Shown here: positions 1,388 through 33,908 of the stretch, one piece after another
Position numbering within the stretch: position 1 is the first letter of the stretch
Layout of the letters: each line of letters begins with the position of its first letter
Assembly (NCBI RefSeq): GCF_003355515.1
Contig: NZ_CP031367.1
Span: forward strand, 1,364,001-1,428,000
Direction: 5' to 3'
DNA length: 64,000 nt
Origin: Aliarcobacter trophiarum LMG 25534
GTDB lineage: Bacteria; Campylobacterota; Campylobacteria; Campylobacterales; Arcobacteraceae
Program-made: the position numbers and the translations under genes
Notes under the pieces: model-generated
Databases searched by the model: none
What the model was told of the DNA's origin: nothing
The model's input: only the letters and a program-made list of their open reading frames with translations

Positions 1388-2349
1388 TATTCAAATACTT
1401 TTTTAGTATCCACAAACTTCATACTTAAAGCTAAAACTATCAAAGCTAGTATAAGAGCTACAAAAATATTTCCTATAAAATAAACTATTATAAATAAACC
1501 TAAATTTAATCCTATAGAATAATTTGTAACTTTATAGTGACTCCACCCTGCTTGAGTTAATCTTTGATATGCATGTTTTTTGTGTGCTTGAGATAATTTT
1601 TCTTTATTTAATTTTCTTCGTATTAAAGTCAAAGTTGCATCAAACCAATAGACACCAAATAATATTATCCATATCCAAAAGTTTGTTGCTTCTTGATTTG
1701 CATAATATATTGTAAAAATAGCTATATTATATCCTAAAAGCGTACTTCCAACATCTCCCATAAATATCTTAGCCCTATTCCAATTCCAATATAAAAATCC
1801 TAAAACTGCAACAGCTAAAACTAAAAAATGATTTCCACCAAATAAAATAAATCCAGCAAGACTTAAAAAAACTGCTTCACTTCCTGCATAGCCATTTATA
1901 CCATCTAAAAAATTATAAAGATTTATAAACCAAATAATAAGTAAAAAAGCAAAAATATTGGCTAATATTTGATTTTGTATATCAAAAATACCAAAAGTAA
2001 GAGTTTCAAATCCACCTAAAAAATATAATCCACCAACAGAAACAATAGCTTGAACTATAAGCCTTAGTTTTGGGCTTAAATCATAAATATCATCAAAAAA
2101 ACTAACTATTGAAATAACTGCACCAAAAAGCAAAGCATAAAAAAGACTTTGTTGTATTTCACCTATAAAATAAAGATAAAACAATCCTATAAACCAAGTA
2201 ATTGAAAGTGCTATTCCTCCACCATGAGGAGTTGGAACTGTATGAGAACTTCTTTCATTTATAGTTGCAACCAATGATTTTTTTATCATATAATTTTTTA
2301 TAAAATATGTTAGTAAAAATGAGATTAAAAAAAGTATTAAATAAATCAA
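1387..2349 (-). CDS. Undecaprenyl-phosphate sugar-1-phosphate transferase, WecA/WbpL family
   Basis: A 320-residue polytopic inner-membrane protein with about ten hydrophobic segments. It carries the MraY/WecA-family marks: PHGGG near residue 42, FFDDIYDLSP near 84, NLYNFLDGINGYAG near 142 and FMGDVGSTLLGYN near 194, followed by a basic HKKHAYQR loop. Family members transfer HexNAc-1-phosphate from UDP-sugar to undecaprenyl phosphate, the initiating step of O-antigen synthesis. Its start overlaps the stop of the SDR gene upstream by 4 bases, so the two are probably translationally coupled. Order SDR, WbpL-like, WbpM-like matches the wbpV-wbpL-wbpM set known in Pseudomonas aeruginosa O6, which suggests QuiNAc or a related sugar as first residue. 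The sugar specificity is inference. Confidence 0.88.
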   Translation of the reverse strand: MIYLILFLISFLLTYFIKNYMIKKSLVATINERSSHTVPTPHGGGIALSITWFIGLFYLYFIGEIQQSLFYALLFGAVISIVSFFDDIYDLSPKLRLIVQAIVSVGGLYFLGGFETLTFGIFDIQNQILANIFAFLLIIWFINLYNFLDGINGYAGSEAVFLSLAGFILFGGNHFLVLAVAVLGFLYWNWNRAKIFMGDVGSTLLGYNIAIFTIYYANQEATNFWIWIILFGVYWFDATLTLIRRKLNKEKLSQAHKKHAYQRLTQAGWSHYKVTNYSIGLNLGLFIIVYFIGNIFVALILALIVLALSMKFVDTKKVFE

Positions 2350-3197
2350 TTCTTTTCTCCTTTTATCATAAGTTTTATTCCATCTTCTACACTATATGGA
2401 TTAGATAAATTTAATTTCTTTTTAGTAAGAGTATTATCTACTTCCAAACTTCCATATAATCGCTTGTGAAATGATGGCTTTACTAGCTTTAGTAAGCTTT
2501 CAAAAAATGGAATTTTTATTAGATATATTTTTTTCTCTAAATTATTAGCTATGAGTTCTATTAGTTTTGAAGTGCTAAGAGGTTGATCATCTGAAGCTAA
2601 AAACACTCCTTCTTTTCTTTGAATTACTATTTCATTTATAATATTTAAAATATTTTGTATTAATATAAAACTTCTTTTATTTCCAATACTTCCTAGAGGT
2701 ATAATAGGCAATTTTTTAACTAATTTTACTAAATTATCTATATTACCTGGAGCATTTTTTCCATATATCATAGGAGGTCTTACTATACTTACTATAAAAT
2801 CACCATCATCTAGTTTCAAAAGCTCTTTTTCTGCTTCTAGTTTACTCTTTCCATATGGTGTAATTGGATTACAGATTGTATTTTCATCTAATTTTTCTAT
2901 ATCTTCACCATAAACAGCAATAGTGCTTATAAATACAAATTGTCTTACTCCATTCTGTTTTGCAAGTTTTGCAAGCTTTACTGGATACTCTACATTTATC
3001 TCATAATATTTTTCATAAGAATACTCTATCTTTTGATGTACAAGTGCAGCACAATGCAAAACTATATTAATATTATCAAATTTTATATCTTCAATTTTTT
3101 GATTTATTAATGAAAATTTTTCAAATATATATTTATCTTTAAACTGATTTATAAAGTTACTTCCTAAATAACCATTTGAACCTGTAATTAAAATTAT
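2346..3197 (-). CDS. NAD-dependent epimerase/reductase (SDR, WbpV-like) with a non-canonical start
   Basis: Extended SDR protein of about 283 residues. The nucleotide-binding ILITGSNGYLGSNF lies at the very N-terminus, upstream of the first possible TTG (3059); starting at that TTG would delete the Rossmann motif. Downstream are STIAVYG and YGKSK (catalytic YxxxK). No ATG, GTG or TTG occurs in frame between the TGA at 3211-3209 and the ITG motif. A strong Shine-Dalgarno run (GAGGGGG, about 3204-3210) precedes ATT at 3200 and ATA at 3197, so translation probably starts at one of these. P. aeruginosa WbpV-type enzymes act with WbpM in UDP-QuiNAc formation, and the neighbouring WbpL- and WbpM-like genes fit that. 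Function by analogy. Confidence 0.8.
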   Translation of the reverse strand: MILITGSNGYLGSNFINQFKDKYIFEKFSLINQKIEDIKFDNINIVLHCAALVHQKIEYSYEKYYEINVEYPVKLAKLAKQNGVRQFVFISTIAVYGEDIEKLDENTICNPITPYGKSKLEAEKELLKLDDGDFIVSIVRPPMIYGKNAPGNIDNLVKLVKKLPIIPLGSIGNKRSFILIQNILNIINEIVIQRKEGVFLASDDQPLSTSKLIELIANNLEKKIYLIKIPFFESLLKLVKPSFHKRLYGSLEVDNTLTKKKLNLSNPYSVEDGIKLMIKGEKN

Positions 3198-3213
3198 AAT
3201 GACACCCCCTCAA

Positions 3214-5008: not shown

Positions 5009-5815
5009 TTAAAAAAGTTCGTAATAGTTTTTTCTATCAAACAACTCTAGCTTGCCACCTACAGTACTGTTATATATTTTTCTTCCATCTATTTCAAACA
5101 TTGTTTTACAAAGTTTATAACTTTTTAGTACATTGTATATTTTTGGATCATGCCATTTTTTACCTACTCCAAAATATGTTTTATCAAAATGATTCGGATC
5201 ATCTTCTGTAGAAATAATTGTGTCACCATCGATAATTGCAGATTCTGGAATTTCATATGAAAAATCCATTCCAATTAAATAAACTTCTGAAAAACCTAAA
5301 TAATATGCTAGTTGTAGATTTAGTATAGTTACAGATTGTCCACAATATAACTGTTCAGAAATATCTATTGAAAATCTTGGTATCTCATAGTATGGTGAAT
5401 TAACTTGATAAAATCCAGTATTCATATTAAAAAAATATGTATTTTTTTTATTCTTTATTAAAGATTTATATTTTGTTGGAAAAAATTTGTACATAACATC
5501 GAAATCATTTATATCTTTTAGATTATCATAAAAAACATGCTTATCTTCTACTATGTAAAATGTTGGTTTAAAATTATCAGATCTATTTTTTAAAAATATA
5601 CTATTTACCCCAAAAGTATACTCATTTTTTAATAACGTTAGATCTATATCATTAAGGGAAGGACCATTTCCAATTATAAAGCATCTTTTATTTTTAAATT
5701 TATTTTTTAGCAATATTAACTTATTTATATCCGCTTTTGGAAGCCAAAATGGAACTTCAAACCATTTATAAGAAATTATTCTTTTATTTATTAAACTCTT
5801 TATAAAATTTTTCAT
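5009..5815 (-). CDS. DUF115/CstII-like protein, possible CMP-sugar transferase (copy 1)
   Basis: 268 residues. The key stretch is RCFIIGNGPSLNDIDL near residue 44, then FGVNSIFLKN, and YYLGFSEVYLIGMDFSY near residue 170. The same motif order (GNGPSL, then an ALG-EIYLSGIDFY-like strand) occurs in the Campylobacter sialyltransferase CstII (GT42) and in the DUF115 core of Maf proteins, which transfer CMP-pseudaminic or CMP-legionaminic acid. A conserved His-containing DDPNHFDKTYFG stretch follows and also appears in the paralogue at 13499-14401. Two such proteins in a cluster that also encodes a CMP-sugar synthetase suggest they transfer that sugar. Database labels for this family (MptE-like, DUF115) are uninformative. 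Transferase activity is inference. Confidence 0.72.
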   Translation of the reverse strand: MKNFIKSLINKRIISYKWFEVPFWLPKADINKLILLKNKFKNKRCFIIGNGPSLNDIDLTLLKNEYTFGVNSIFLKNRSDNFKPTFYIVEDKHVFYDNLKDINDFDVMYKFFPTKYKSLIKNKKNTYFFNMNTGFYQVNSPYYEIPRFSIDISEQLYCGQSVTILNLQLAYYLGFSEVYLIGMDFSYEIPESAIIDGDTIISTEDDPNHFDKTYFGVGKKWHDPKIYNVLKSYKLCKTMFEIDGRKIYNSTVGGKLELFDRKNYYELF

Positions 5816-5817
5816 AA

Positions 5818-6444
5818 TTAATAACTCTGTAAATTAATCTCAACAAATTTATCTATATATGTATTGTTTTTTTTAAGTTTTACATTATTATAACCAAAAA
5901 ATTCAATGTGATTTTCTTCAGCTGCTTCATAATCATTTATACTATCACCTATTAAAATAGTTTCCTCTTTTTTATAATTATTCATTTCTAAAATATTTTT
6001 TACTATTTTTGATTTCATGATTGGAGATCCAGTTATAGATAAAAAATATTTTGTCAAGTTTAATCTTTCACAGATATATTTTAAATCATTTTCATCTGCA
6101 CCAGATGCTATATGCATATTATATTTTTTATAATTATGATTTATAAAGCTTACTGTATCTTCAATAATATATTTTGAATTTGTCAATTCTTCTTTTGTTA
6201 TTAAAGAGTACCTATTAGCATACTTTAAAATATCATCTTCTGAAATATTTTCATTTAATAATTTATTAAAAAAATATTTAATTTTTATATATCTAGATTT
6301 TCCACCATTTAATTCGTGATATTGAATAAACTCTTTTACTTTGTTTTTTGGAAATCCTTCAAAAAGTTTTTTAAACCCTTCAGTTTTTATAGGGACAGAA
6401 TCAAGTATTACTCCATCAAAATCAAATATTATATTTTTTATCAA
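5818..6444 (-). CDS. HAD-superfamily phosphatase
   Basis: A 208-residue HAD hydrolase of the beta-phosphoglucomutase/phosphoglycolate phosphatase type. Motif I is IFDFDGVILDS at residues 5-15 (nucleophile and acid Asp), motif II the Ser in HIASGADEND, the motif III lysine probably in IMKSKIVK, and motif IV ILIGDSINDYEAA near residue 164. A helical cap lies between residues 16 and 90. It overlaps the upstream YhcH-like gene by 4 bases. In ulosonic acid pathways a HAD enzyme such as KdsC removes the phosphate before CMP activation; a similar step is likely here. The substrate is unknown. Confidence 0.83.
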   Translation of the reverse strand: MIKNIIFDFDGVILDSVPIKTEGFKKLFEGFPKNKVKEFIQYHELNGGKSRYIKIKYFFNKLLNENISEDDILKYANRYSLITKEELTNSKYIIEDTVSFINHNYKKYNMHIASGADENDLKYICERLNLTKYFLSITGSPIMKSKIVKNILEMNNYKKEETILIGDSINDYEAAEENHIEFFGYNNVKLKKNNTYIDKFVEINLQSY

Positions 6445-6929
6445 ACTTTAACCTTTACAACAGTTTTAATAACTTTTATTGGTTCATTTATTTTAATACA
6501 AGGCATATGGGCATCATCTGGAAAGAAAATAGCTATATCACCTTTTTTTAGTTTAATAGATGATGAAAAATTTGAATCTCCATACTTAATTAAATCCATA
6601 TTTTCATTGTATTTAAAATATACATTAAGATTTTTTATATTATCAACTTCTATAATCTCTTCACCTTCAAGGATAAACTGAACATCTATATTTTTTATAT
6701 GTGCTTCAAAAAAACATTTTTCTCTATCTTTTGAAAAATATGTTTGTTCTAGTGCAAAGTTATTTTTATCTAAAACTATTTTTTCAAATGCATTTAGATT
6801 ATATGACTTTAATCTTTTATACTCTTCACTTTTTTCATTTAAAACTTTTGTTAAATATTCAAAAGCAGTAGAAAATCTAGTATCTTTAATTTGTTTTTTT
6901 AAAATTTCTATATTACCAAATATTGCCAT
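6441..6929 (-). CDS. YhcH/NanQ/TabA-family (DUF386) sugar anomerase-like protein
   Basis: A 162-residue cupin-like protein. It has the family's FEAHIKNIDVQFILEGEE block (about residues 73-90) and FFPDDAHMPC near residue 135, whose His and acidic residues bind the metal. E. coli YhcH (NanQ) speeds the anomerisation of sialic acid, and YhcH-like proteins often accompany sialic or related acid genes. Here it sits between the HAD phosphatase (4-base overlap) and the cyclase (stop and start adjoin), within the CMP-sugar block. A role in presenting the right anomer of a 2-keto sugar acid to the cytidylyltransferase is my inference. Confidence 0.75.
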   Translation of the reverse strand: MAIFGNIEILKKQIKDTRFSTAFEYLTKVLNEKSEEYKRLKSYNLNAFEKIVLDKNNFALEQTYFSKDREKCFFEAHIKNIDVQFILEGEEIIEVDNIKNLNVYFKYNENMDLIKYGDSNFSSSIKLKKGDIAIFFPDDAHMPCIKINEPIKVIKTVVKVKV

Positions 6930-7607
6930 TTATTCTATTTCTCCAATTATTGTACAAGGTAATCCATCACAATTTGATATTCTTAATGGTGCAATAATTA
7001 CTCTTTTAAATTTTGTATTTATATCTATTTGCTTTAAATCCATATCTTCAAGCAATAAAATAGGGTTTTTAGGATTTAAGAAAGCCTTATGAGCTTCTCT
7101 TCCTATCATTCTATTTTGGAAACTTGATACCGAAATACTATCAAATCCAATCACTCTTATATTTGGAAATGAGTTTCTTAAATATTCAGCTATCGACGGA
7201 TCAAATCCATAATTTAATTCCCAAAATTCTTGAGTATCTCTTTTATAACAAATACCTGTTTTTACTATCAGAATCTCATATATATTTTTGTCTTTTATTT
7301 TATCCAATTGTTCTATGAGTTTAGCCCCTATAACAAGCTCTTTAGGAACAAATTCTATGAATAGCACATTTTCAAAATTAAAATATCCACAATCAAAATT
7401 TTCAATGGTCTGCCCATATTCAAAAAAATGATAAGGCATATCTATATGAGTGCCTATATGAACTGTTGTTTCTATTGTTGTATCATTTGCAATATCACCT
7501 TTTGAAATATCAGATTTTTTACTAGAAATAAATTTATTCTTATTTCCATAACTAGGTGTATTATTATCTAAAATATGTGAAAGATACACAAATTTACTCA
7601 AATTCAT
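6930..7607 (-). CDS. Cyclase-family metal-dependent hydrolase
   Basis: 225 residues of the Cyclase family (kynurenine formamidase-like). The metal site motif HIGTHIDMPYHFFE near residue 51 fits the family HxGTHxDxPxH pattern, and a second characteristic stretch, VIGFDSISVSS, is near residue 152. Known members hydrolyse amide or lactone bonds. No tryptophan-catabolic genes are nearby; the neighbours are an SDR (14-base overlap), the YhcH-like protein, a hydroxyacid dehydrogenase and an aldolase. It may open a lactone or remove an acyl group in the CMP-sugar pathway. Family is clear, the reaction is not. Confidence 0.8.
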   Translation of the reverse strand: MNLSKFVYLSHILDNNTPSYGNKNKFISSKKSDISKGDIANDTTIETTVHIGTHIDMPYHFFEYGQTIENFDCGYFNFENVLFIEFVPKELVIGAKLIEQLDKIKDKNIYEILIVKTGICYKRDTQEFWELNYGFDPSIAEYLRNSFPNIRVIGFDSISVSSFQNRMIGREAHKAFLNPKNPILLLEDMDLKQIDINTKFKRVIIAPLRISNCDGLPCTIIGEIE

Positions 7608-8475
7608 TATTTTTCTCTATTTCTTTCATACACTCTAAGATTCCTTGTCCCATGTCGATATATGGATTTGCTACTAGTTTTTTACTTCTTGTAGGATGAA
7701 ATGAATATGGTGTAGTTTGATAGTGATTGTGATATCCATCATTATTTAAATTTATTTCTATTTTATTACCCAATATTTCATTAATCATAGTAAATAATTC
7801 TTTTCTATGCATTCTCTCAACTCCTGTAAGAATAAGATGTTCATTTACAAAATCTTCACTCTTTATGACTTGAATTGCTAACTTTGCAACATCTGCTGCA
7901 TGAATATATTCTCTTACTTCTTCTCCATCTCCACTATGATTGATAGTTCTTGTTAGCATAGCACTTTTTACTAAATTGTAAATATAATTATTTTGATAAT
8001 CTCTTTCTCCATATACTGAACCGTATCGAATAATAGTAAATTCTAAACCAAACTTTTTGTAATACTCTTCTGTAAGTTTTTCTGATGTAAGTTTACTAAT
8101 TCCATAAAAAGAGCCCTTATCGCTCATAGAATAAGCACTACTTGCATAAATAAATCTTTTTATATTATTTATTTTACAAGCTTCTAAAATATTTAAATTT
8201 CCCATTACATTCAATTCTAAGGCTTTTGTAGGATTAGCTATAGCATCATCAAGGTTTGCAAACCCTGCAAAATTATAAACTATATTTGCACCTTTTATAA
8301 CTTCATTCACATTTTTAACATCTAAAATATCACACTTGATAAAATATTTTATATTTACATATTTAGAAATATTTAGATCAGCTGCTACTACATCGTATCC
8401 ATTATTAATAAGTTCTTCAACTACATAACTTCCTATAAATCCACAACCACCAAAAACTACTACTTTTTTAGTCAT
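7594..8475 (-). CDS. NAD-dependent epimerase/dehydratase (extended SDR)
   Basis: I start this gene at the ATG at 8475 (MTKKVVVFGG), which has a GAGG 9 bases upstream and overlaps the stop of the hydroxyacid dehydrogenase gene by 8 bases; an upstream start only adds residues inside that gene. The protein is about 293 residues, with GGCGFIGS near residue 8, NFAGFANLDDA near 72, ASSAYSMSDKGSFYGISK with catalytic Ser and YxxxK near 112-130, and REYIHAADVA near 182. It belongs to the UDP-sugar epimerase/dehydratase group, but the nucleotide of its substrate cannot be told from the sequence. It could act on a CMP-, UDP- or free sugar in this block. Confidence 0.85.
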   Translation of the reverse strand: MTKKVVVFGGCGFIGSYVVEELINNGYDVVAADLNISKYVNIKYFIKCDILDVKNVNEVIKGANIVYNFAGFANLDDAIANPTKALELNVMGNLNILEACKINNIKRFIYASSAYSMSDKGSFYGISKLTSEKLTEEYYKKFGLEFTIIRYGSVYGERDYQNNYIYNLVKSAMLTRTINHSGDGEEVREYIHAADVAKLAIQVIKSEDFVNEHLILTGVERMHRKELFTMINEILGNKIEINLNNDGYHNHYQTTPYSFHPTRSKKLVANPYIDMGQGILECMKEIEKNNEFE

Positions 8476-9421
8476 TGTTAAATACCTCATTTTTCAAAGG
8501 TTCATTGTTTTTAAATCTTATTACTTCTTCTACTGCTTGAATTTCCATATCTCTTCTGCTATCAATAGTACTTGCTCCCATATGACATGTTAGCAAACAA
8601 TTATCTAATTGACAAAGATTACCTTTATATGGTTCTTCTTCAAATACATCTACAGCAGCACCTGCTATTTGTTTATTTTTCAATGCAATATATAAATTAT
8701 TTTCATTTATAATTCCTCCACGGGCAGTATTTATTAAAATAGTATGTGAAGTCATCATAGATAATTCTTTTGTAGTAATATAATTTAAAGTGTCTTTTTT
8801 AAGAGGAATATTAACTGAAATAATATCACTTTTTTTTAGAACTTCTTCTTTTGAAACAAAATTTACATTGTATAATCTTCCAAAAGCAATATCAGGATTA
8901 GTATCATGCACTAAAAACTTAATATTAAAAGAAGACAAAAGATGTACTAAACTTTTACCAATTCTTCCCATTCCAAAAATACCAATAGTTTTTCCATATA
9001 GTAAAGTTCCCATATGTCTTTTCCAAATACCAAGTCGAATATTCTTATCAGTAATTGTAATTTGTCTAGCTAAATCTAAAATCATACCAACACAAAGTTC
9101 AGCTACAGCCATAGTAGGAGCATCTGGAGTATATGTAACTCTTACACCATATTTTTTACATAATTCAAAATCAACTCCATCAAGTCCTATACCTACTCTT
9201 GAAATAAGTTTTAGATTTGGAGCATTTTGAAATACTTCTTCTGTGATTTTTTCAGTTCCTGCAATAAGAATTTCAGAATCTTTTATTTCTATTGCCAACT
9301 CTTGAGAATTCATTTTATGCTCAAGAGGATTTAATTTAACTTCAAAATCATTATTCTTTAGTAATTCCATTGGTTCTTTTGATGTTGAGCTAAAAGGGTG
9401 AGTTGATACAAAAACTTTCAT
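8468..9421 (-). CDS. D-2-hydroxyacid dehydrogenase (phosphoglycerate dehydrogenase-like)
   Basis: Start chosen at ATG 9421, which shares a base with the upstream stop (TAATG). A start at 9511 would add 30 residues inside the aldolase gene with no homology-like features. The product is about 317 residues, with RVGIGLDGVDF, the NAD-binding GIFGMGRIGKSL near residue 144, and the catalytic set Arg in NTARGGIIN, Glu in DVFEEEP and His in CHMGAST. It lacks the ACT/ASB regulatory domains of SerA, so it is a short-form enzyme. Placed between an HpaI aldolase and an SDR, it more likely works on a 2-keto or 2-hydroxy acid intermediate of the sugar pathway than in serine synthesis. Substrate is inference. 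Confidence 0.85.
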   Translation of the reverse strand: MKVFVSTHPFSSTSKEPMELLKNNDFEVKLNPLEHKMNSQELAIEIKDSEILIAGTEKITEEVFQNAPNLKLISRVGIGLDGVDFELCKKYGVRVTYTPDAPTMAVAELCVGMILDLARQITITDKNIRLGIWKRHMGTLLYGKTIGIFGMGRIGKSLVHLLSSFNIKFLVHDTNPDIAFGRLYNVNFVSKEEVLKKSDIISVNIPLKKDTLNYITTKELSMMTSHTILINTARGGIINENNLYIALKNKQIAGAAVDVFEEEPYKGNLCQLDNCLLTCHMGASTIDSRRDMEIQAVEEVIRFKNNEPLKNEVFNND

Positions 9422-10185
9422 TAATTTAATCCTTCTTTTAATTTTTTCATACCGTTCATAGCTGAATCTCTCAAAAAAAAGTAATCTATTCCATAGGCTA
9501 AAAAAGTACACCCTTGATCAATTTTTTGTTTTAAATTTTCTGGATTTGTATCTACTACATGAAATCCTGATGGAATATTATGAATTTTGCATCTATCCAA
9601 TACTTTTTGAACAGCAATTTTTACATCTTTTCTTTCAAATTCACCTGGATATCCCATAGAACCAGATAAATCATATGGTCCAATTATTGTTCCGTCAATA
9701 CCAGCAACCTGTAAAATATCATCTATATTATTTACTGCTTCAATATGTTCTATTTGAGCTATTATTACTAACTCTTCATTTACCCATTTTTTATACTCTT
9801 CAAATCTCGTACCATATCCAGAAGCTCTATATAAACCAACACCTCTTTTACCAATAGGTGGATATTTTGCATAATTTACAGCAGTAATTGCATCTTCTTT
9901 AGAACATACCATAGGCACTATTATTCCATCTGCTCCCATATCTAATATTCTTTTTATGATTACTTCTTCATTCTTACTAACTCTAACGAGTGCTTTTATA
10001 CAATTTGCTTGAATAGTTCTTATTAGATTTTCAGCAGTTTGCAAATCTATGGAAGTATGTTCTATATCAATAACAAGCCATTCAAATCCTGCCAATGCCA
10101 TCACTTCAATACTCAAGGAATTTCCCATCATTACCCATGAACCAATTGTAAGTTCACCATTTTTTAATTTTTGTTTTAAACTCAT
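9421..10185 (-). CDS. HpcH/HpaI-family class II pyruvate aldolase
   Basis: A 254-residue TIM-barrel protein of the HpaI/RhmA/GarL group. Family residues are visible: Glu-His in VIDIEHTSID near residue 44, Arg in KALVRV near 70, metal-binding Glu in IAQIEH near 147, and metal-binding Asp in IIGPYDLSGSMGYPGEF near 173. These enzymes reversibly join pyruvate to an aldehyde, giving 2-keto-3-deoxy or 4-hydroxy-2-keto acids. It lies 13 bases after the CMP-sugar synthetase gene. No catabolic genes are near, so a biosynthetic role making a 2-keto sugar acid for CMP activation is plausible. That role replaces the usual NeuB/KdsA step and is inference. Confidence 0.85.
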   Translation of the reverse strand: MSLKQKLKNGELTIGSWVMMGNSLSIEVMALAGFEWLVIDIEHTSIDLQTAENLIRTIQANCIKALVRVSKNEEVIIKRILDMGADGIIVPMVCSKEDAITAVNYAKYPPIGKRGVGLYRASGYGTRFEEYKKWVNEELVIIAQIEHIEAVNNIDDILQVAGIDGTIIGPYDLSGSMGYPGEFERKDVKIAVQKVLDRCKIHNIPSGFHVVDTNPENLKQKIDQGCTFLAYGIDYFFLRDSAMNGMKKLKEGLN

Positions 10186-10198
10186 TTTATATCCTAAA

Positions 10199-10873
10199 TT
10201 ATAGTTTATCTTTATTTTTATATAAAAGTTCTGCCATTATAAAATCTTCTGGCTCATCTATATCTACTGCTTCTAGTTTATTTACTTCAAAAATTTGAGG
10301 TTTTAATCCTATTCTTTTATTATTGGAATTTTTAAATGCTTCTTTGGAAAAAATATAAAAATTTGAATTCTCTTCATACATAGGTTCTAAATCTTGTGTT
10401 CTTAATAACTCATTTGGATTGTGATTGATTGCCTTTGCATTTTTGTCATAAAATCTTGTCTGAACCTTTGTAACACCAAAAACACTATCAAAATTATCTA
10501 TTTTAGTAAAATAGTTTTCTATTGCACTATCAATAGTCTCACTCTTCAAAAGAGGATTTGTACTATGAGTTTGTAAAAAATGCTCTCCATCTAATTTTGA
10601 TAAATCATAAGCTATGATATCATTCATAGAAACGAAATCTCCTTGAATCTCAGTTGGCCTATCAATTATTATAATTTTATCTCCAAAAGTTTTTTTTGCA
10701 TCTTTTGCTATAACTTCACTATCTGTATTTATAACAACATTATTTATATACTTACTAGCCAAGAGTGATTTTACTATAGCATGATAAAGTGGTGAACCAT
10801 TAAAACTCTTCATGTTTTTATTTGGAACTCTTTGCGAATTTCCCTTCATTGGTAATAGTGCTTTTATGTTCAT
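10199..10873 (-). CDS. CMP-sugar acid synthetase (acylneuraminate cytidylyltransferase family)
   Basis: 224 residues with the nucleotidyltransferase start ALLPMKGNSQRVPNKNMKSF (the CTP-binding loop with the R-PNKN signature of NeuA/PseF/KdsB relatives), INTDSEVIAKDAK near residue 49, HFLQTHSTNPLL near 98 and VDIDEPEDF near 205. The family joins CMP to a 2-keto sugar acid (sialic, pseudaminic, legionaminic, KDO). The loop is KGNSQR rather than the more usual RGGSKG, so it is a diverged member. No neuB, neuC, pseI or legI homologue is in the window. The start overlaps the stop of the SGNH gene by 4 bases. Specific substrate unknown. Confidence 0.85.
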   Translation of the reverse strand: MNIKALLPMKGNSQRVPNKNMKSFNGSPLYHAIVKSLLASKYINNVVINTDSEVIAKDAKKTFGDKIIIIDRPTEIQGDFVSMNDIIAYDLSKLDGEHFLQTHSTNPLLKSETIDSAIENYFTKIDNFDSVFGVTKVQTRFYDKNAKAINHNPNELLRTQDLEPMYEENSNFYIFSKEAFKNSNNKRIGLKPQIFEVNKLEAVDIDEPEDFIMAELLYKNKDKL

Positions 10874-12003
10874 TGTTTTCCTTTACTTATTTCTAGTTTC
10901 TTATAATATATTTGATTATATGAATTTATGTTATTTATCATATTTTTTAGATATTCATTTATATTTTGTTCATTTAATAAATTTTCTTTCTTTATCATTG
11001 AAGTCATGATTAAATCATTTATACTAGCTCTATAATGTCCATAGTCTTTATAATTATATATATTATTTACAATTTCATAAATATTATCAAAGGCATATAT
11101 GTTTAAATTATTAAACTCCTTTAACTTACTAACTAAATATATTCTTCCATATAAAAATCTATTAACATCTTCTACCTTACTATTCCTATAAAACCATGTT
11201 GAATATGGTGGGAAATATACATTAAACTCTATATCTGGAAATTCTTTAATTACACTTAATATATAATTTTCTATATTAGGATATTCATAATTTTTATGAA
11301 TTATTTCTTCATAATTAATATTTCTATGTATAATATTTTTATTTAATTTGTCTAAATTATTATCATTTCCATATAATTCAAATTTTTTGTTTTTAACATC
11401 TCTATCATACCAAAAATAAAGTGTATCTAAACTCTCGCTCCATTTTGTCCAATTAACTTTTCCAATAAATATATCCCATGAATATCTTATATAATCTTCA
11501 TTAAATAGATAAAATCCAATTTGAATAAATAAATTATTTGAATAAAGTTCATAAGGAAAATTGTGTTTTTCATCTTTTTGTGTCTCATTTAAATATATAT
11601 AATAAGAATGTATATCCCAAAAAACTTTTTTTATTTTTCCTGTTTCCAAAGCTTTTCTTATTAATGTATATTGTTCTAGTGGTCTTCCTCCACTCATAGT
11701 TAATTTTAATACTTTATCTCCATTATTCAATAACTTTTCAAATTTTGATGGAATAAAGTTTTCTGACATAGATGTACCCATAATTATTGTATTATAATTT
11801 TCATCACTTCTATTTATAAAGTTATTTATCAAACCTATATTTTGATATCTTTGTTCTTTAAAATATTTTATTTTACTATTATTTAAAGAAATTTGACTAT
11901 GATAAATTTGAATTGGATCCACAATAAAAACAAAAATCGCCGGACTTAATATAATAACTAAAATTATACTTAAACTTAAAATTATATTTCTTTTTACTTT
12001 CAT
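10870..12003 (-). CDS. SGNH-like O-acyltransferase partner of the MBOAT protein
   Basis: Start chosen at ATG 12003 (MKVKRN), which has AGGG 5 bases upstream; an earlier ATG at 12021 overlaps the MBOAT gene. About 377 residues: one N-terminal membrane anchor, then a periplasmic domain. IIMGTSMSENF near residue 74 has the position of the SGNH block I serine, MSGGRPLEQ follows, and a late DYGHY near residue 328 can supply the Asp-His pair. Such proteins (AlgJ/AlgX, PatB, DltD-like) receive an acyl group from an adjacent MBOAT protein and place it on a polysaccharide. Location just after the MBOAT gene supports this. The exact fold was not computed. Confidence 0.7.
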   Translation of the reverse strand: MKVKRNIILSLSIILVIILSPAIFVFIVDPIQIYHSQISLNNSKIKYFKEQRYQNIGLINNFINRSDENYNTIIMGTSMSENFIPSKFEKLLNNGDKVLKLTMSGGRPLEQYTLIRKALETGKIKKVFWDIHSYYIYLNETQKDEKHNFPYELYSNNLFIQIGFYLFNEDYIRYSWDIFIGKVNWTKWSESLDTLYFWYDRDVKNKKFELYGNDNNLDKLNKNIIHRNINYEEIIHKNYEYPNIENYILSVIKEFPDIEFNVYFPPYSTWFYRNSKVEDVNRFLYGRIYLVSKLKEFNNLNIYAFDNIYEIVNNIYNYKDYGHYRASINDLIMTSMIKKENLLNEQNINEYLKNMINNINSYNQIYYKKLEISKGKQ

Positions 12004-12010
12004 AATTACC

Positions 12011-13486
12011 CTAAAAATCAAAATATAAAAATTCAGAAACTCTATTTTGCAAATATACTATATAGTATAAAGGAATTACAGAGAGAATTATCATATAAAA
12101 CATATAAGTATAATTAGCTTTAAAACTACTATTCAAATAAGTCATAGAATTTTTAAAGCCTAAGACTAAAATAAAGGCTATACAAATCCAAATAAAAATT
12201 TCACTATTTTTTGCACCTATATCAATAAACATTTTTTCACCATTAATACCAATTTCTCTTAGAAACTTAAATTTAGTAAGTAATTTCTCAGATAACACAA
12301 CATTATCCAAACTAAACATACTTCCTAATAATTTTATTGCACTCTCAAAATCTTTTGCTCTAAAAAATATCCATGTTATATTTATAAAGTTAAAAGTAAT
12401 AAACCAAGCCAAAATCTTATTTAGTTTAAATCCTAATCTTTGCCAAAATCTATGAATAGCTAATGCAACTCCATGCAATGCTCCCCATACTATAAATGTC
12501 CATCCAGCTCCATGCCAAAGCCCACCTATTAAAAAAGTTGCCAATAAATTTGTATATGTTCTAAATTCACCTTTTCTATTACCACCCAATGGAATATAAA
12601 TATAATCTCTAAGGAACCTACTTAGAGTCATATGCCATCTTCTCCAAAAATCTTGAATACTTAGAGCTTTATATGGAGAATTAAAGTTTATTGGAAGTTT
12701 TATATTAAACATTAAAGATATCCCAATTGCCATATCTGTATATCCAGAAAAATCAAAGTATAGTTGGAATGTATAAGATAATGATGTCGCCCATGCTTCT
12801 ATTAAATTTAAAGTTGTTGCTGTATCAAATCCAGCATTTGCCCATACTGCAAAGGTATCTGCTATTACAACTTTTTTAAACAACCCAATAGAAAATATAA
12901 ATAATCCTAATGCTATATTTCTATAATTCTTTACCCAATTATATTTACTTGCAAATTGTGGCATCATCTCTTTATGATGAAGAATTGGACCTGCAAGTAA
13001 GTGTGGAAAATATGTTACAAACAGCATATAATTTACTAAACTATACTCTTTTGCTTCACGTCTGTATGCATCTACTAAAAATGCTATTTGAGTAAAGGTA
13101 AAGAAGCTAATACCTAAAGGAAGAATAATATGTGGCAATGGAATGTTTGATCCAAATATACCATTAAAGTTTTCAAGCAAGAAATCTGTATATTTAAAGT
13201 ATCCTAGTAATCCTACATTAAACAATATACCAAATATTAAAATTGTTTTACTGTTTACTTTTATCTTCTCATGATTTACTAAACTTAACCCTACACTATA
13301 GTTTACAAATATTGATAATAGTATCAAAGGAACATAATTAAAATTCCAATATCCATAAAAAAACAAACTTGCTATTACTAAAAATATCTTTGCACCAAGA
13401 ATTAATCTTTGGCTCAATAGATAAAAATATACTATAAAGGTTATTGGTAAAAATATAAAAATAAATTCATAACTATTAAATAACAT
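12011..13486 (-). CDS. MBOAT-family O-acyltransferase (AlgI/PatA-like)
   Basis: A 491-residue polytopic membrane protein. It begins FNSYEFIFIFLPITF, typical of the AlgI group, and carries QDFWRRWHMTLSRFLRDYIYIPLGGNRKG near residue 278 and GLWHGAGWTFIVWGALHG near 318, with the conserved MBOAT histidine. The family moves acyl groups, usually acetyl, across the membrane to a periplasmic partner. The SGNH-like gene follows 7 bases downstream. Inside an ABC-exported polysaccharide cluster, this pair most likely O-acetylates the chain after export. Alginate itself is unlikely because no alg genes are present. Confidence 0.9.
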   Translation of the reverse strand: MLFNSYEFIFIFLPITFIVYFYLLSQRLILGAKIFLVIASLFFYGYWNFNYVPLILLSIFVNYSVGLSLVNHEKIKVNSKTILIFGILFNVGLLGYFKYTDFLLENFNGIFGSNIPLPHIILPLGISFFTFTQIAFLVDAYRREAKEYSLVNYMLFVTYFPHLLAGPILHHKEMMPQFASKYNWVKNYRNIALGLFIFSIGLFKKVVIADTFAVWANAGFDTATTLNLIEAWATSLSYTFQLYFDFSGYTDMAIGISLMFNIKLPINFNSPYKALSIQDFWRRWHMTLSRFLRDYIYIPLGGNRKGEFRTYTNLLATFLIGGLWHGAGWTFIVWGALHGVALAIHRFWQRLGFKLNKILAWFITFNFINITWIFFRAKDFESAIKLLGSMFSLDNVVLSEKLLTKFKFLREIGINGEKMFIDIGAKNSEIFIWICIAFILVLGFKNSMTYLNSSFKANYTYMFYMIILSVIPLYYIVYLQNRVSEFLYFDF

Positions 13487-13498
13487 ACTTTTTTATCC

Positions 13499-14401
13499 TT
13501 AAAACAAACTATTATAATCCACTCTTTCCAAAACTTCTAACTTTCCACCACTTGTTGCATTATAAATTTTTCTTCCATGTTTTTCGAAAAACTCACCTGC
13601 TTTAGCATATCCTTGCTCCATTCTATCAACCATCGGGTCATGCCATCTATAACCTTTACCAAAATAATCTGGATGAAAATGATTTGGATCATCACTTTGA
13701 GATGTAATTTGTAATCCTTCAATATCAGCATCATCTGGAATATCATAATGATGATCAAAGCCAATTAAATAAAGTTCTTTTATACCTAAATAAAATGCTA
13801 GTTGCATACAAATATATGTTACAGAACCTCCTGTCCATGCCTGTCTTGCTATATTTTCTGAGAAATATGGGAAATTTGGATAATTATCATATCTCATTCT
13901 CACATTTATCCAATTTACCTTATCATCTTTTTCACTATTCAGACAATACTTTAGATAATTACCAAACCATTTTTGTGGTCCTCTCATTGTATTTATTTCA
14001 TTTGCTCTATCTTCTGCAACATAGTTATCTTCAACCACATAGTGTGTAGGTAAAAATCCCATTTTATCTTTATTTAAGTAAATACTATTTACTCCTATTG
14101 TAATTTCATCTTTTAACTTTGTTAGATCAAGTTTATTTAAACTAGGTCCATTGCCTATTAAAAATGCTCTTTTCCCTTTATATACATTATGGTATTTAAG
14201 TATATCTTTATGATTTTGTGTTATTGGCATATTTCTAGATGCCATTTTATAGCCAAATGTTTCAAATGCTAAATATAAATTTGAAGAATTATATTTATCC
14301 TTATATGGTCTTGTATACCCATCTATTAATTTACTTCTAATATTACGATATAATCTATAAGTTTCATATATTGGTGTAATTCTTTTTAATTGTTCTCTCA
14401 T
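13499..14401 (-). CDS. DUF115/CstII-like protein, possible CMP-sugar transferase (copy 2)
   Basis: 300 residues, clearly a paralogue of the 5009-5815 product. It shares RAFLIGNGPSLNKLDLTKL near residue 78, the VNSIYLNKD strand, the YVVEDNYV strand, YLGIKELYLIGFDHHYDIPDD near 205, the SDDPNHFHPDYFGKGYRWHDP block and the C-terminal ATSGGKLEVLERVDYNSLF. It has an extra 40 residues at the N-terminus. It starts inside the last codons of the GT4 gene (4-base overlap). The two copies may add the same CMP-activated sugar at two positions or act on different acceptors. Evidence for glycosyl transfer is motif similarity to CstII/Maf plus context only. Confidence 0.72.
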   Translation of the reverse strand: MREQLKRITPIYETYRLYRNIRSKLIDGYTRPYKDKYNSSNLYLAFETFGYKMASRNMPITQNHKDILKYHNVYKGKRAFLIGNGPSLNKLDLTKLKDEITIGVNSIYLNKDKMGFLPTHYVVEDNYVAEDRANEINTMRGPQKWFGNYLKYCLNSEKDDKVNWINVRMRYDNYPNFPYFSENIARQAWTGGSVTYICMQLAFYLGIKELYLIGFDHHYDIPDDADIEGLQITSQSDDPNHFHPDYFGKGYRWHDPMVDRMEQGYAKAGEFFEKHGRKIYNATSGGKLEVLERVDYNSLF

Positions 14402-15603: not shown

Positions 15604-16790
15604 TAACTTTTTAAATCTCCTAATATTTTAAATAATTCTTTTAATTCAGAAATTTTTCTAATATAACTTGCTCTTTTAACTTTATCATATTGAATACAAA
15701 TTTTTTCCAACTTCTTATTATTTTGTTGATTCCATCTTTGATATTTTTCTCTCTTTGATTTTTCTGTCTCATGCCATCTTTTTAAAGTTTTATAAAAATT
15801 GGTTAAAATACCTTCTGATAATAACTCTAAATAATTTAAAACTTTAGAATATGAGTTTTTTATAAAATTATTTTGTATACTTCCATTAATATTATGCTTT
15901 AAAGAATAAACTGACTCAACTTTTTCATTAATAAATTTTGATTCAAAACCACTCATATGCATTAAATTATTTAACGAATCCTTATTAAAATTAAACATAT
16001 GTGCATGAATATGATAGCCTAAAAATGAATTATTATAATAATCTTTTTCATGAATCACAAACAATCCAGGCACTTCAACATATAATAAAGTTTTGTCTAC
16101 CATAAGTTGTTTTAAATCATCTAGTTCTTTATTCAAATCTATAAAATGTTCAAATACATGACTTAATATAATTAAATCAAATTTCTTATTTAAGCCTATT
16201 ACAGTTTGGATATTCCCAAAAATTGTATTTATACTTTTTTCTTTACATTTATTGATACAATTATTATTATACTCTGTACCAAGTTCCTCAACTATAATAT
16301 TTTCTTTTTTAGCTTCTTCCTTAAACTCAGAAAGTACATTTCCTGTACCTGCTCCAATTTCAAGAACACTTATTTTCTCTTTTTTGGGTAAAAAATCTTT
16401 TATAATAGTAAATATCTTTTTACCTTGTCCATCCTCAAAAAGTGCTACTTGATTTTCTAAGTGTTCCTCCCCATAATTTAGAGGATGATAATATTTATCG
16501 TAATAATAAGATAATGATTCTTGAGACATTCTAGGATTTGTCATAACTAAACCACAATCTCTACAAATCAAACTACCAAAAGGTAAACCAAACCTATCAA
16601 TTTTTGTTAGTTCTTCAAGATTAAGACTTCCACATTGACATTTTTCTACAAGTTCCGTTTTTATTACTTTATTTTTAAAATCTTCTAAAAACATATTTCT
16701 ATATTTCTGAGATATTTCATTTAATTTTCTAGGAATAATATCCGTTCTAAGAAGTTCTTTTCTAAAATCTTGATTTAATAAATTATCCAT
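15603..16790 (-). CDS. SAM-dependent methyltransferase, possible polysaccharide chain-end modifier
   Basis: 395 residues. A zinc-finger-like Cys set (CQCG near residue 51 and CRDCG near 77) precedes a class I methyltransferase fold with VLEIGAGTGNVLSEF near 147, LIILSHVFEHFIDL near 210, and a later LLYVEVPG strand. The last 90 residues (about 305-395) are strongly charged and helical (KTLKRWHETEKSKREKY), possibly a coiled coil. It overlaps wzt by 8 bases. In ABC-exported O-antigens such as E. coli O9a, a methyltransferase ends the chain and the Wzt C-domain reads that end. This gene is in the right place for such a role, but the sequence alone cannot show it. Confidence 0.75.
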   Translation of the reverse strand: MDNLLNQDFRKELLRTDIIPRKLNEISQKYRNMFLEDFKNKVIKTELVEKCQCGSLNLEELTKIDRFGLPFGSLICRDCGLVMTNPRMSQESLSYYYDKYYHPLNYGEEHLENQVALFEDGQGKKIFTIIKDFLPKKEKISVLEIGAGTGNVLSEFKEEAKKENIIVEELGTEYNNNCINKCKEKSINTIFGNIQTVIGLNKKFDLIILSHVFEHFIDLNKELDDLKQLMVDKTLLYVEVPGLFVIHEKDYYNNSFLGYHIHAHMFNFNKDSLNNLMHMSGFESKFINEKVESVYSLKHNINGSIQNNFIKNSYSKVLNYLELLSEGILTNFYKTLKRWHETEKSKREKYQRWNQQNNKKLEKICIQYDKVKRASYIRKISELKELFKILGDLKS

Positions 16791-17973
16791 TTATCTCCCA
16801 TTCATGATTTAATGTTACATATCCAAATACTCTCTCTCTATTTGCTACAGTAAAATTTTTATTTAATTGTCTATATAAAAACTCACTTCCATCAACTACA
16901 ACAAACATTGAACTATACTCATTTGGATTAAAATAACAATTGGTTTTTAAACTACCTTTAATTTTATATCTATCTTTAAATAATCTTATTTTATAAAAAT
17001 CACTATTAAATGAAGTTATATTATTTCCTAAATTATCCCAAATAGGTAAACCAATTATCAAATTCTTTGGATCAAATTTTAATTCAAAACTAAAATCTAA
17101 AATCATCTCTTCTTGGAGTTTATACATCACCTTACTCCAACTATGTTTTACATTTATAATTTTTTCTTTATTATGAAATAAATCTCCATAAAATGGTTTA
17201 ACAACTTTAGGTGTATTTTTCTTATTCAATTCTTGTTTTTCATTTTCTTCTTGTTCAATATAATACTTTATGCCATCATCTGCGTTTCCATAAAAAACTT
17301 TTTTACCTTTTTCTAATACCAATACATTATCACAAAAAAGTCTTACGCTATTCATAGAATGAGAAACAAATATCATTGATATATTTTCTCTCATTGCATT
17401 TATTTTAGATAAACATTTTTGCTGGAAATTAAAATCTCCCACGGCTAACACCTCATCAAGTATAAGGATATCTGGCTTACTAGAAATTGCTATACCAAAA
17501 CCTAGTCGAGACTTCATACCACTACTATATGTTTTTACTGGTTGAGTAATAAATTCTCCAATTTCAGCAAATTCTTCTATCTCTTTTATCTTTTCTTTTA
17601 ATTCATTTTTATTAAAACCACTTATTTTAAGATTTAATTCTATATTTTCAAGACCTGTTAATTCCGGTTTCAAGCTTGAGGTAAGTTCAAGTATAGCTGA
17701 AATTTTACCTTTAGTGTTTACATGTCCTTTTGTTGGAGTCAATACTCCTGATATTATTTTTAAAAGAGTTGATTTACCATTTCCATTTCTTCCTATAATA
17801 CCTAGTGTTTCTCCACGTTTTAACTCAAAAGAGATATCATTTAGTGCATAAAACTCTTTATGATATTTCTTTTTAAATGGGTTTAATGTTTCTTTAACTC
17901 TATCAATTGGTTTATTATATAATTTATATGTTTTAGAAATATTTTTTACTTTTACTATAGTTAATTTGTTCAT
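16783..17973 (-). CDS. wzt: ABC transporter ATP-binding protein for polysaccharide export (Wzt-like)
   Basis: 396 residues. The nucleotide-binding domain has Walker A IIGRNGNGKSTLLK near residue 60, the Q-loop region, signature YSSGMKSRLGFG near 150 and Walker B DILILDEVLAVGDFNFQ near 170; VGDxxFQ is typical of Wzt. A linker at 235-260 leads to a 135-residue C-terminal beta-rich domain of the Wzt_C type, which binds the modified non-reducing end of the O-antigen. That domain is absent from capsule-type KpsT. It starts at the stop of wzm (shared base). This points to chain-end-controlled export. Confidence 0.9.
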   Translation of the reverse strand: MNKLTIVKVKNISKTYKLYNKPIDRVKETLNPFKKKYHKEFYALNDISFELKRGETLGIIGRNGNGKSTLLKIISGVLTPTKGHVNTKGKISAILELTSSLKPELTGLENIELNLKISGFNKNELKEKIKEIEEFAEIGEFITQPVKTYSSGMKSRLGFGIAISSKPDILILDEVLAVGDFNFQQKCLSKINAMRENISMIFVSHSMNSVRLFCDNVLVLEKGKKVFYGNADDGIKYYIEQEENEKQELNKKNTPKVVKPFYGDLFHNKEKIINVKHSWSKVMYKLQEEMILDFSFELKFDPKNLIIGLPIWDNLGNNITSFNSDFYKIRLFKDRYKIKGSLKTNCYFNPNEYSSMFVVVDGSEFLYRQLNKNFTVANRERVFGYVTLNHEWEING

Positions 17974-18788
17974 TATAATACATCTCCAAAATGAGGTCTA
18001 AGTCTTCTAAATACAACAACTCCTAATATCAAAAGAAATAAAGTTATTGATAAAAAACAAATCAAATAATCTGTTGACTCCCAAAACCACTTATTATATA
18101 AAAAGCTATTTCTATATCCTTCAACTATATACACCATAGGATTAAGATTTAATACGAACATATATTTTTCTGGAACCATTTTTATAGACCAAAAAATAGG
18201 TGTTACCCAGAAACCTAGTTGTAATACTACACTTATTATCTGTGAAATATCTTTCATAAAAACTCTCAAAGCAGAGGTAAACCAACTTATACCCAAAACT
18301 AAAATAAACATCATAAAAGTGTAAAAAGGTAACTGCAACCAATAGATAGTAGGACTATATCCATACAAAAACAATACCACTATTAAAATTAGTAAAAAGA
18401 TTATATGAAGAAATAAAGCAGATAATATCTTTACAATTGGTAAAATACTTACTCTAAAATTTACTTTTTTAACTAAATATTTATTTGTGATAATGGAATT
18501 CATTCCTCCACTTATAGCATCGGAAAAAAAGAACCATGGTATGTACCCACACATTAAATAAAGTATGAAAGGTATTTCTGAATTTTCTAAATGTCTTTTA
18601 AAACCAATAGAAAAAATAAACCAAACAATAATCATAAATAGTATTGGTCTAAGAATAGCCCAAAGTATACCTAGGTAAGAACCTAAAAACTGCTCCTTAA
18701 AATCATTTTTTGCTAAAACATATAATAATTGTTTGCTTTTTATCAAATCTTTAAAAAATCTAAAAAAACTTTTTAATATAATAATCAA
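17973..18788 (-). CDS. wzm: ABC-2 type polysaccharide export permease (Wzm-like)
   Basis: 271 residues with six predicted membrane segments. [37 protein letters not shown] is cut here to its core: [12 protein letters not shown] near residue 30, the usual amphipathic entry helix of Wzm/Kps[20 protein letters not shown] and the C-terminal ending [10 protein letters not shown] are also typical. The start is TTG at 18788, whose TTGA overlaps the TGA of galE. Works with the following wzt to export the undecaprenyl-linked glycan across the inner membrane. Confidence 0.9.
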
Positions 18789-33047: not shown

Positions 33048-33878
33048 ATGCCTAAACACATTAAAACACTTACTGATACTGAAGTAAAAAATTTAAAACC
33101 TAAAGAGAAAGATTATAAATTAAGTGATGGAAACAATCTTTTTATAGTTGTTAGAAAAAGTGGGAGTAAATATTTTAGATTTGATTTTACTTTTAATAAC
33201 AAAAGACAAAGTATGAGCTTAGGATCTTATCCTGAAGTTACTTTAAAAGATGCTAGAGAAAAAAGAAATAAAGCAAAAGAAAATTTAAAAAATGGAATTA
33301 ATCCCATTGAAACAAAAAATTCTAATTTTAAATTAGAAACTACATTTAAATATATTTCTGATAAATGGCTTGAACTACAAAAAAATGGCTGGAGCATATC
33401 TAATTATAATAAAATTAAAAGTAATTTAGAAAATAATGCTTATCCATTTATTGGTAATAAAAATATCCAAGATATTACTAGAAGAGATATTTTATTACTT
33501 GCAGAACGTATGGAAAAAAGAGATGCAATTGAATATGCAAATAGATTGCTAAATAATATACAAAGAATATATAAATATGCTGTTACAAATGAGTACACTG
33601 AACACAATATAATATCTGACATTGATAAGAAAAATTCTTTAAAACAAAGGCAAAGTAAAAATGTACCTGCACTAACCAAAGACTCAGAAGTGCAACAATT
33701 AATTTTAGATATTGATAGTTATGGAATTAATTTTAAAGCAGATATAAGCACCATTTATGCTTTAAAACTATCTCCTTATCTTGCTTTACGTCCTTATAAT
33801 TTAAGAAAATTGGAATGGTCAGAAATAAATTTTGAAAAAGAATATATTGAAATATCTGCAGATAAGATGAAAATGAAC
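33048..33878 (+). pseudogene. Phage/island tyrosine integrase (P4 type), truncated by an IS
   Basis: About 277 residues remain. The N-terminus has the arm-binding domain of P4-type integrases (TDTEVKNLKPKEKDYKLSDG, then SMSLGSYPEVTLKDAR), the core-binding domain follows at about 105-190, and the catalytic domain begins with the first active-site Arg in LALRPYNLRKLEW near 249. The IS element at 33879 cuts the gene before the second Arg motif and the nucleophilic Tyr, so the enzyme cannot be active. The final residues of the open frame are IS-encoded. Its place directly after tRNA-Met fits an integrated island whose remainder is lost. Confidence 0.88.
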
Positions 33879-33908
33879 TGGAATGACCCCAAGTTAGTAG
33901 ACACTTTT

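Follow-up and report, generated by a model that had tools for sequence, protein, structure and literature searches.

An HpaI-type aldolase gene linked to cytidylyltransferase genes in Aliarcobacter trophiarum and in at least eight bacterial phyla

Introduction

Cytidine monophosphate (CMP)-activated sugar acids are made by phosphoenolpyruvate (PEP)-dependent synthases. Surveys of bacterial "sialic-acid-like" sugars usually take NeuB as their marker gene. The subject here is a cassette of genes in the complete, single-contig 1.92-Mb genome of Aliarcobacter trophiarum LMG 25534 (NZ_CP031367.1), lying in a 64-kb stretch of DNA at positions 1364001-1428000 that was analyzed as a whole and that we call the window. 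A CMP-sugar synthetase (CytT) is followed in it by an HpaI-type class II 2-keto acid aldolase (HpaI), a D-2-hydroxyacid dehydrogenase (DHDH), a short-chain dehydrogenase (SDR), a metal-dependent hydrolase (Cyc), a YhcH/NanQ-like anomerase (YhcH), a HAD phosphatase (HAD), and an MptE/DUF115 protein. An initial reading made from the sequence without database searches, the sequence-only reading, had listed these eight genes in this order, and all are there on the minus strand, from 10873 down to 5009, with intergenic gaps of -14 to +14 bases. Our interpretation, to which we give a probability of about 0.6, is that the product of the cassette is a 2-keto sugar acid, activated with CMP and destined for the surface polysaccharide of the locus, and that the HpaI-type aldolase, not NeuB or KdsA, forms the C-C bond.

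The closest described systems are the nonulosonic acid pathways, for N-acetylneuraminic (Neu5Ac), legionaminic (Leg), and pseudaminic (Pse) acids, in which NeuB, LegI, or PseI is followed by NeuA, LegF, or PseF. The cassette resembles them in its PseF/NeuA-type PF02348 enzyme and in a neighbor with a predicted Maf/CstII fold, but it has no PEP-dependent synthase, hydrolyzing 2-epimerase, or aminotransferase, it does have an HpaI-type aldolase and a dehydrogenase like phosphoglycerate dehydrogenase (PGDH), and its CytT scores far under the PseF equivalog cutoff. The pathway to 3-deoxy-D-manno-octulosonic acid (Kdo; KdsA, KdsC, KdsB) shares an aldol-type step, a HAD phosphatase, and CMP activation, and a KdsB-like partner is found at 24 of the 62 loci described below; KdsA, however, uses PEP and belongs to another family, the cassette HAD is HAD_2/beta-PGM-like, and the A. 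trophiarum KdsA is a single gene elsewhere. Catabolic class II pyruvate aldolases (HpaI, GarL, YfaU/RhmA) have the same Pfam family and catalytic residues, whereas the cassette HpaI forms its own clade, falls under every NCBIfam equivalog cutoff, and has activation and polysaccharide genes, rather than catabolic genes, as neighbors. The last likeness is to the Maf and GT42 (CstII) transferases, onto which the PF01973 neighbor DUF115 can be modeled, although it has only 14-16% identity to them and is a stand-alone protein of 268 amino acids (aa).

Linkage of HpaI and cytidylyltransferase across bacteria

The HpaI protein of the window was used to scan 84,980 species genomes, which gave 62 loci, gathered by exact peptide patterns from this one HpaI, with distant members under-sampled. 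Neighbors were annotated by hidden Markov models built from the loci, and 41 loci form the subset with full flanks. The 62 belong to Campylobacterota, Thermodesulfobacteriota, Deferribacterota, Bacteroidota, Balneolota, Ignavibacteriota, Pseudomonadota, Planctomycetota, Bacillota, and Omnitrophota. Many are from metagenome-assembled genomes (MAGs), for which a few phylum labels may be binning errors; the cassette is present in at least eight bacterial phyla.

A cytidylyltransferase is found within 4 kb of HpaI at 60 of the 62 loci and at all 41 with full flanks; the two loci lacking one are L052, at a contig edge, and L072. The control set, small at seven loci with divergent HpaI from the same phylum, most of them with nearly 10 kb of flank per side, has a cytidylyltransferase in none (0/7). 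Because 60 of 62 HpaI-retrieved loci have an adjoining cytidylyltransferase against 0 of 7 controls, the arrangement is not due to chance. The sequence-only reading had asked whether the two genes stay together where neuB is absent, and they do so across phyla, including in NeuB-free genomes.

The family of the partner is of interest, as it is PseF-like in 36 loci and KdsB-like in the other 24, with both together in none. On the HpaI tree, between 7 and 9 switches of partner type are required, with supported branches forcing no fewer than 4 of them, and the closest relative of the window HpaI, which has a CytT-type partner, is a KdsB-type HpaI at 86% identity. That close HpaI enzymes adjoin two cytidylyltransferase families is best explained by each of these families activating the product of the HpaI step.

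The other members at the 41 full-flank loci are DHDH (39), SDR (32), HAD (32), Cyc (23), DUF115 (19), YhcH (14), and 6-phosphogluconolactonase (6PGL; 7). The sequence-only reading had suggested that a pyruvate aldolase could supply the 2-keto acid for CytT, and the gene linkage agrees with this part, but a near-obligate DHDH is left unexplained by a simple swap for NeuB. Because DHDH is so regularly present, the pathway probably involves more than the exchange of a single enzyme, and the same near-constancy suggests that the donor is not simply pyruvate. Cyc and 6PGL substitute for each other and occur together at 0 of 41 loci, a mutual exclusion that suggests a lactone-opening step.

These gene counts could also be taken to mean that oxidation builds the carbon skeleton. 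SDR would oxidize C1 of a sugar or sugar phosphate to a lactone, Cyc or 6PGL would open it, HAD would dephosphorylate, and DHDH would oxidize C2 to give a 2-keto aldonic acid for CytT, with HpaI trimming or recycling a by-product or swapping the aldehyde part. The interchange of Cyc with a true 6-phosphogluconolactonase fits such a scheme, as do the 2-ketogluconate reductase among the solved relatives of DHDH and the existence of DHDH-SDR-Cyc sets without HpaI. We nevertheless consider it unlikely, as no other gene accompanies the cytidylyltransferase as constantly as HpaI does, though in a count biased by the loci having been gathered by HpaI, some HpaI-KdsB-like loci (L068, L070, L071) have no DHDH, SDR, or Cyc nearby, and the SDR fold is of the nucleoside diphosphate (NDP)-sugar type.

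The cassettes come in several architectures. Type A has the order CytT-HpaI-DHDH-SDR-Cyc-(YhcH)-HAD, with a Bacteroidota variant CytT-YhcH-HpaI-SDR-6PGL or Cyc-HAD-DHDH, YhcH lying between CytT and HpaI in many Bacteroidota cassettes. Type B has HpaI-KdsB-like, other sugar genes next, and then DHDH-SDR-Cyc-HAD. Type C (L082, L083, L094) has DHDH, a Gfo/Idh oxidoreductase, a GmhA-like isomerase, a classical SDR, and an AroB-related cyclase, then YhcH, CytT, and HpaI. The cyclase is of the TIGR04425 type, with 459 bits in L082; as a side observation, the type C gene set suggests a cyclitol or heptose-derived building block feeding the same activation step. More distant versions were found as well. 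A complete plasmid of the alphaproteobacterium Acuticoccus sp. I52.16.1, found by tblastn of plasmids, has HpaI, CytT, DHDH, HAD, and SDR in one row with 44%, 46%, 34%, 28%, and 38% identity to the window proteins, and L129 has a very distant PF03328 protein and a different PF02348 protein alongside DHDH, SDR, Cyc, and HAD. The HpaI/CytT pairing therefore arose, or was kept, well outside the close clade.

Among 397 Campylobacterota genomes, HpaI of the window type (at least 65% identity) is found in 11, its own included, and a relative at 31-37% in seven further genomes. The cassette SDR is in 15 of the 397, including all 11 with window-type HpaI, and in G406 it is on a separate contig. A search for CytT in 30 other genomes of the genus matched in 2 only, at 31-34% identity. 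By these homology searches the cassette is sporadic and not a genus trait. The viral contigs searched contain no HpaI relative.

One further locus, L015 (G199:C1:667416-668099), has an otherwise complete type A cassette in which the HpaI gene contains one in-frame TGA, either gene decay or a sequence error.

PEP-dependent synthases in cassette genomes

There is no NeuB or KdsA within the window, as the sequence-only reading had stated, and the locus lacks a PEP-dependent synthase (PF03102 or KdsA) of its own. A dedicated neuB, pseI, or legI, or a second kdsA, just outside the window, which that reading had named as telling against it, was not found either. The single NeuB of the genome is at 1750191, 322 kb past the window end, in a cluster of NeuD, LegC, NeuB, NeuC, a nucleotidyltransferase, and its own PseF/LegF-type cytidylyltransferase; judged by these predicted neighbors, it is committed to legionaminic acid. 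The single KdsA is at 450689, ~0.9 Mb from the cassette. The Leg cluster ends in a 680-aa protein (L041:8057-10099, G000:C1 ~1745056-1747098) that has no NCBIfam match at the threshold applied and may be a flagellin Maf transferase.

Elsewhere, NeuB is absent in 10 of the 47 cassette genomes searched (L047, L078, L079, L082, L084, L085, L086, L095, L099, L106), five of which are named isolates (Draconibacterium mangrovi, Hufsiella ginkgonis, Maribacter flavus KCTC 42508, Maribacter sp. 4G9, and Facilibium subflavum), and two further genomes (L088, L093) have weak partial NeuB matches alone. KdsA was looked for in 18 genomes, with none in L086 and none above the cutoff in L088, L093, and L098. 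Weak partial matches aside, L086, L088, and L093 have neither synthase above the cutoff. None of the CytT-type cassettes has a NeuB on its strand at a distance of 9.5 kb or less. The linkage of HpaI to CytT is independent of NeuB.

An explanation keeping a PEP-dependent synthase would have CytT activate either Kdo from the housekeeping KdsA or what a remote NeuB makes, while HpaI, DHDH, and the rest make another component, such as a hydroxy-acid substituent of the polysaccharide. KdsA is indeed found in most cassette genomes tested and a NeuB-family match somewhere in 37 of 47, and the KdsB-like partners score as Kdo cytidylyltransferases in NCBIfam. The CytT-HpaI pair is kept, however, in NeuB-free genomes and in the three with neither synthase, the CytT-type cassettes have no NeuB close by on their strand, and A. 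trophiarum carries separate KdsB and Leg cytidylyltransferases besides the cassette CytT. We regard this explanation as improbable.

Enzymes of the cassette

CytT belongs to the PF02348 cytidylyltransferases, as would be expected in a CMP-ulosonic acid pathway, and its nearest solved structures are CMP-Neu5Ac synthetases (6ifd, 9ftb, 1qwj, 1eyr). Against the PseF model TIGR03584 it scores 101 bits, under the equivalog cutoff of 205.7, and it is not assigned as a PseF.

HpaI is a class II (PF03328) enzyme with D40, H43, R68, E146, and D172 invariant in the alignment; we assign them to the metal, enolate, and base positions reported for the family (PMC8560999, PMC7610986). The Acinetobacter HpaI converts pyruvate and D-glyceraldehyde to 2-keto-3-deoxy sugar acids (PMC8560999), and a screen of 571 class II aldolases found 19 that accept hydroxypyruvate, every one from the HpcH/HpaI family (PMC7610986). 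Since known class II HpaI enzymes make 2-keto-3-deoxy sugar acids and some take hydroxypyruvate, a synthetic direction of HpaI is chemically reasonable. The window protein is under the cutoffs of the catabolic equivalogs, scoring 203 against 368.8 bits for HpaI, 188.6 against 406.75 for GarL, and 166 against 441 for RhmA. That it cleaves as in catabolism, the cluster degrading or salvaging a sugar acid, is already very unlikely: most characterized HpaI relatives (GarL, YfaU, HpaI) are catabolic and YhcH proteins are often in catabolic operons, but the cassette is in a polysaccharide assembly locus with glycosyltransferase, WecA-like, and Wzm/Wzt genes, its CTP-dependent activating enzyme and CstII/Maf-fold protein have no obvious catabolic role, and neither a sugar-acid transporter nor a regulator for a pathway of this kind was seen.

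The SDR model, with a predicted local distance difference test (pLDDT) score of 90, matches NDP-sugar epimerases and decarboxylases. The YxxxK motif is present as Y124 and K128, and R188 is invariant. YhcH scores 55 bits against NanQ NF040884, below the cutoff of 160, and belongs to the broader TIGR00022 subfamily (78 against 45.5).

The eighth gene had been described from sequence as CstII/Maf-like, and the predicted fold agrees. The DUF115 model (pLDDT 88) has a sialyltransferase-like Rossmann fold of the Maf/GT42-like kind, aligning to Maf 5mu5 with Z = 14.1 (root-mean-square deviation [rmsd] 3.8, 197 residues) and to CstII 1ro8 with Z = 12.8 (rmsd 3.8, 186 residues), and a profile search matches CstI/CstII by sequence with E from ~2e-5 to 5e-5. 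The MptE-type HPPK (pterin diphosphokinase, 8sd5) has the same fold at Z = 11.9, and PF01973 covers both. The modeled fold supports a CMP-sugar transferase role, with the fold alone not decisive.

Proposed pathway

The direction and substrates of HpaI, the order of the steps, and the product are what we infer, as follows. The metal-dependent HpaI would join a small 2-keto acid, pyruvate or hydroxypyruvate, to an aldehyde in the aldol-addition direction, giving a 2-keto acid. HAD would strip phosphate from the precursor or the product, YhcH would provide the anomer used by CytT, CytT would form the CMP sugar, and the DUF115 protein would transfer it. Least certain are the places of DHDH, which may supply the 2-keto acid donor, e.g., phosphohydroxypyruvate and then hydroxypyruvate after HAD, and of SDR with the PF04199 or 6PGL hydrolase, which may make the acceptor or tailor the product via a lactone.

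Several points weigh against this scheme. The enzyme activities assigned here rest on sequence and models. The usual role of HpaI enzymes is catabolic cleavage. With free pyruvate, aldol addition is reversible, which PEP-driven synthesis is not, and it could be drawn forward only by the CMP activation that follows. The linkage of DHDH is almost as strong as that of the cytidylyltransferase, so that a scheme centered on HpaI alone is incomplete. The NeuB-family and KdsA matches in the majority of cassette genomes count here as well, and L086, L088, and L093 are MAGs of unknown completeness. At two loci related gene sets have no HpaI nearby: in L130:8693-14346, DHDH-SDR-Cyc are by a split transketolase and a radical-SAM protein with no cytidylyltransferase nearby either, and in L131:6543-11321, DHDH-SDR-Cyc-HAD are with two different cytidylyltransferases in a row. 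In its own right, L130 indicates that the DHDH-SDR-Cyc trio can serve a different C-C bond-forming enzyme.

A PGDH-like enzyme followed by HAD would yield hydroxypyruvate, a donor for some HpaI enzymes and also for transketolases, as in L130. The cassette could then make a CMP-activated ulosonic acid of a new class, with a class II aldolase in place of the PEP-dependent synthase, a hydroxypyruvate donor from DHDH and HAD, a 3-hydroxyl retained so that the product is not 3-deoxy, and one aldolase serving two cytidylyltransferase families; we offer this tentatively, as a possibility that is more doubtful than probable.

Two other possibilities were set aside. The candidate product 3-deoxy-heptulosaric acid (Dha) is the dihydroxy analogue of the own product of HpaI, with its nucleotide form undefined (PMC12168206), and nothing identified makes the four-carbon aldehyde acid it needs. 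For a phosphonate pathway, no PEP mutase was seen in the cassette.

The surrounding locus

Coordinates and family scores are collected in Table 1. The family of DHDH stands as first assigned, with a small correction in that the likely start is the ATG at 9421 (MKVFVST) and not the upstream GTG at 9511. On one flank of the cassette are two GT2 genes and a WecA-like gene, and on the other are an MBOAT protein, a second DUF115 protein, a GT4, a methyltransferase, the Wzt/Wzm exporter pair, and a GalE-like gene. By this predicted gene content, the context is an ABC-dependent O-antigen or similar polysaccharide locus.

Table 1. Features of the cassette and nearby genes, in window positions
Feature	Positions	Strand	Family and evidence
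CytT, acylneuraminate/PseF-type CMP-sugar synthetase	10199..10873	-	PF02348, 93 bits (cutoff 22.6)
HpaI-type class II 2-keto acid aldolase	9421..10185	-	PF03328, 128.5 bits (cutoff 25); catalytic residues kept
DHDH, D-2-hydroxyacid dehydrogenase	8468..9421	-	PF02826/PF00389; closest to phosphoglycerate dehydrogenase and glyoxylate reductase
SDR, extended short-chain dehydrogenase, NDP-sugar epimerase/dehydratase type	7594..8475	-	PF01370, 140 bits; YxxxK intact
Cyc, metal-dependent hydrolase, putative lactonase	6930..7607	-	PF04199, 60 bits
YhcH/NanQ-like sugar anomerase (DUF386)	6441..6929	-	PF04074, 95 bits
HAD phosphatase, HAD_2, beta-PGM-like	5818..6444	-	PF13419, 67 bits
MptE/DUF115 protein, Maf/CstII-like fold, candidate CMP-sugar transferase	5009..5815	-	PF01973, 88 bits; predicted structure
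Second MptE/DUF115 protein, another candidate CMP-sugar transferase	13499..14401	-	
Wzt/Wzm-type ABC exporter pair	16783..18788	-	

The gene at 10870-12021, whose protein has no Pfam match, shares 4 bases with CytT and comes after an MBOAT/DltB-like gene at 12011-13486. The pair at 10870-13486 resembles an O-acylation module of an MBOAT protein and a possible SGNH/AlgX-like partner, the partner being called by impression only. The epimerase open reading frame (ORF) at 2346-3200 was listed with a TTG start at 3059; its frame stays open further upstream as far as a GSNGYLG motif, and a non-ATG start near 3200 is probable. A frameshift in this SDR at 2346-3059 was rejected, as the frame is open upstream and the start codon there was absent from the listing. 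At 33048-34745, a tyrosine recombinase ORF abuts an opposite-strand IS3-type transposase ORF (33909-34745), like an interrupted integrase.

Significance

In the open-access literature we found no paper joining an HpaI aldolase and a cytidylyltransferase in a surface-polysaccharide pathway, which is weak evidence of absence as subscription journals are mostly uncovered, and searches on pentulosonic acid capsules and on the TIGR04425 cyclase gave no result. The cassette is widespread and apparently undescribed. Its five-gene core is small enough for in vitro reconstitution. Present in at least eight phyla, it would escape surveys based on NeuB, and it points to an acidic surface sugar and to aldolases with synthesis as their biological role.

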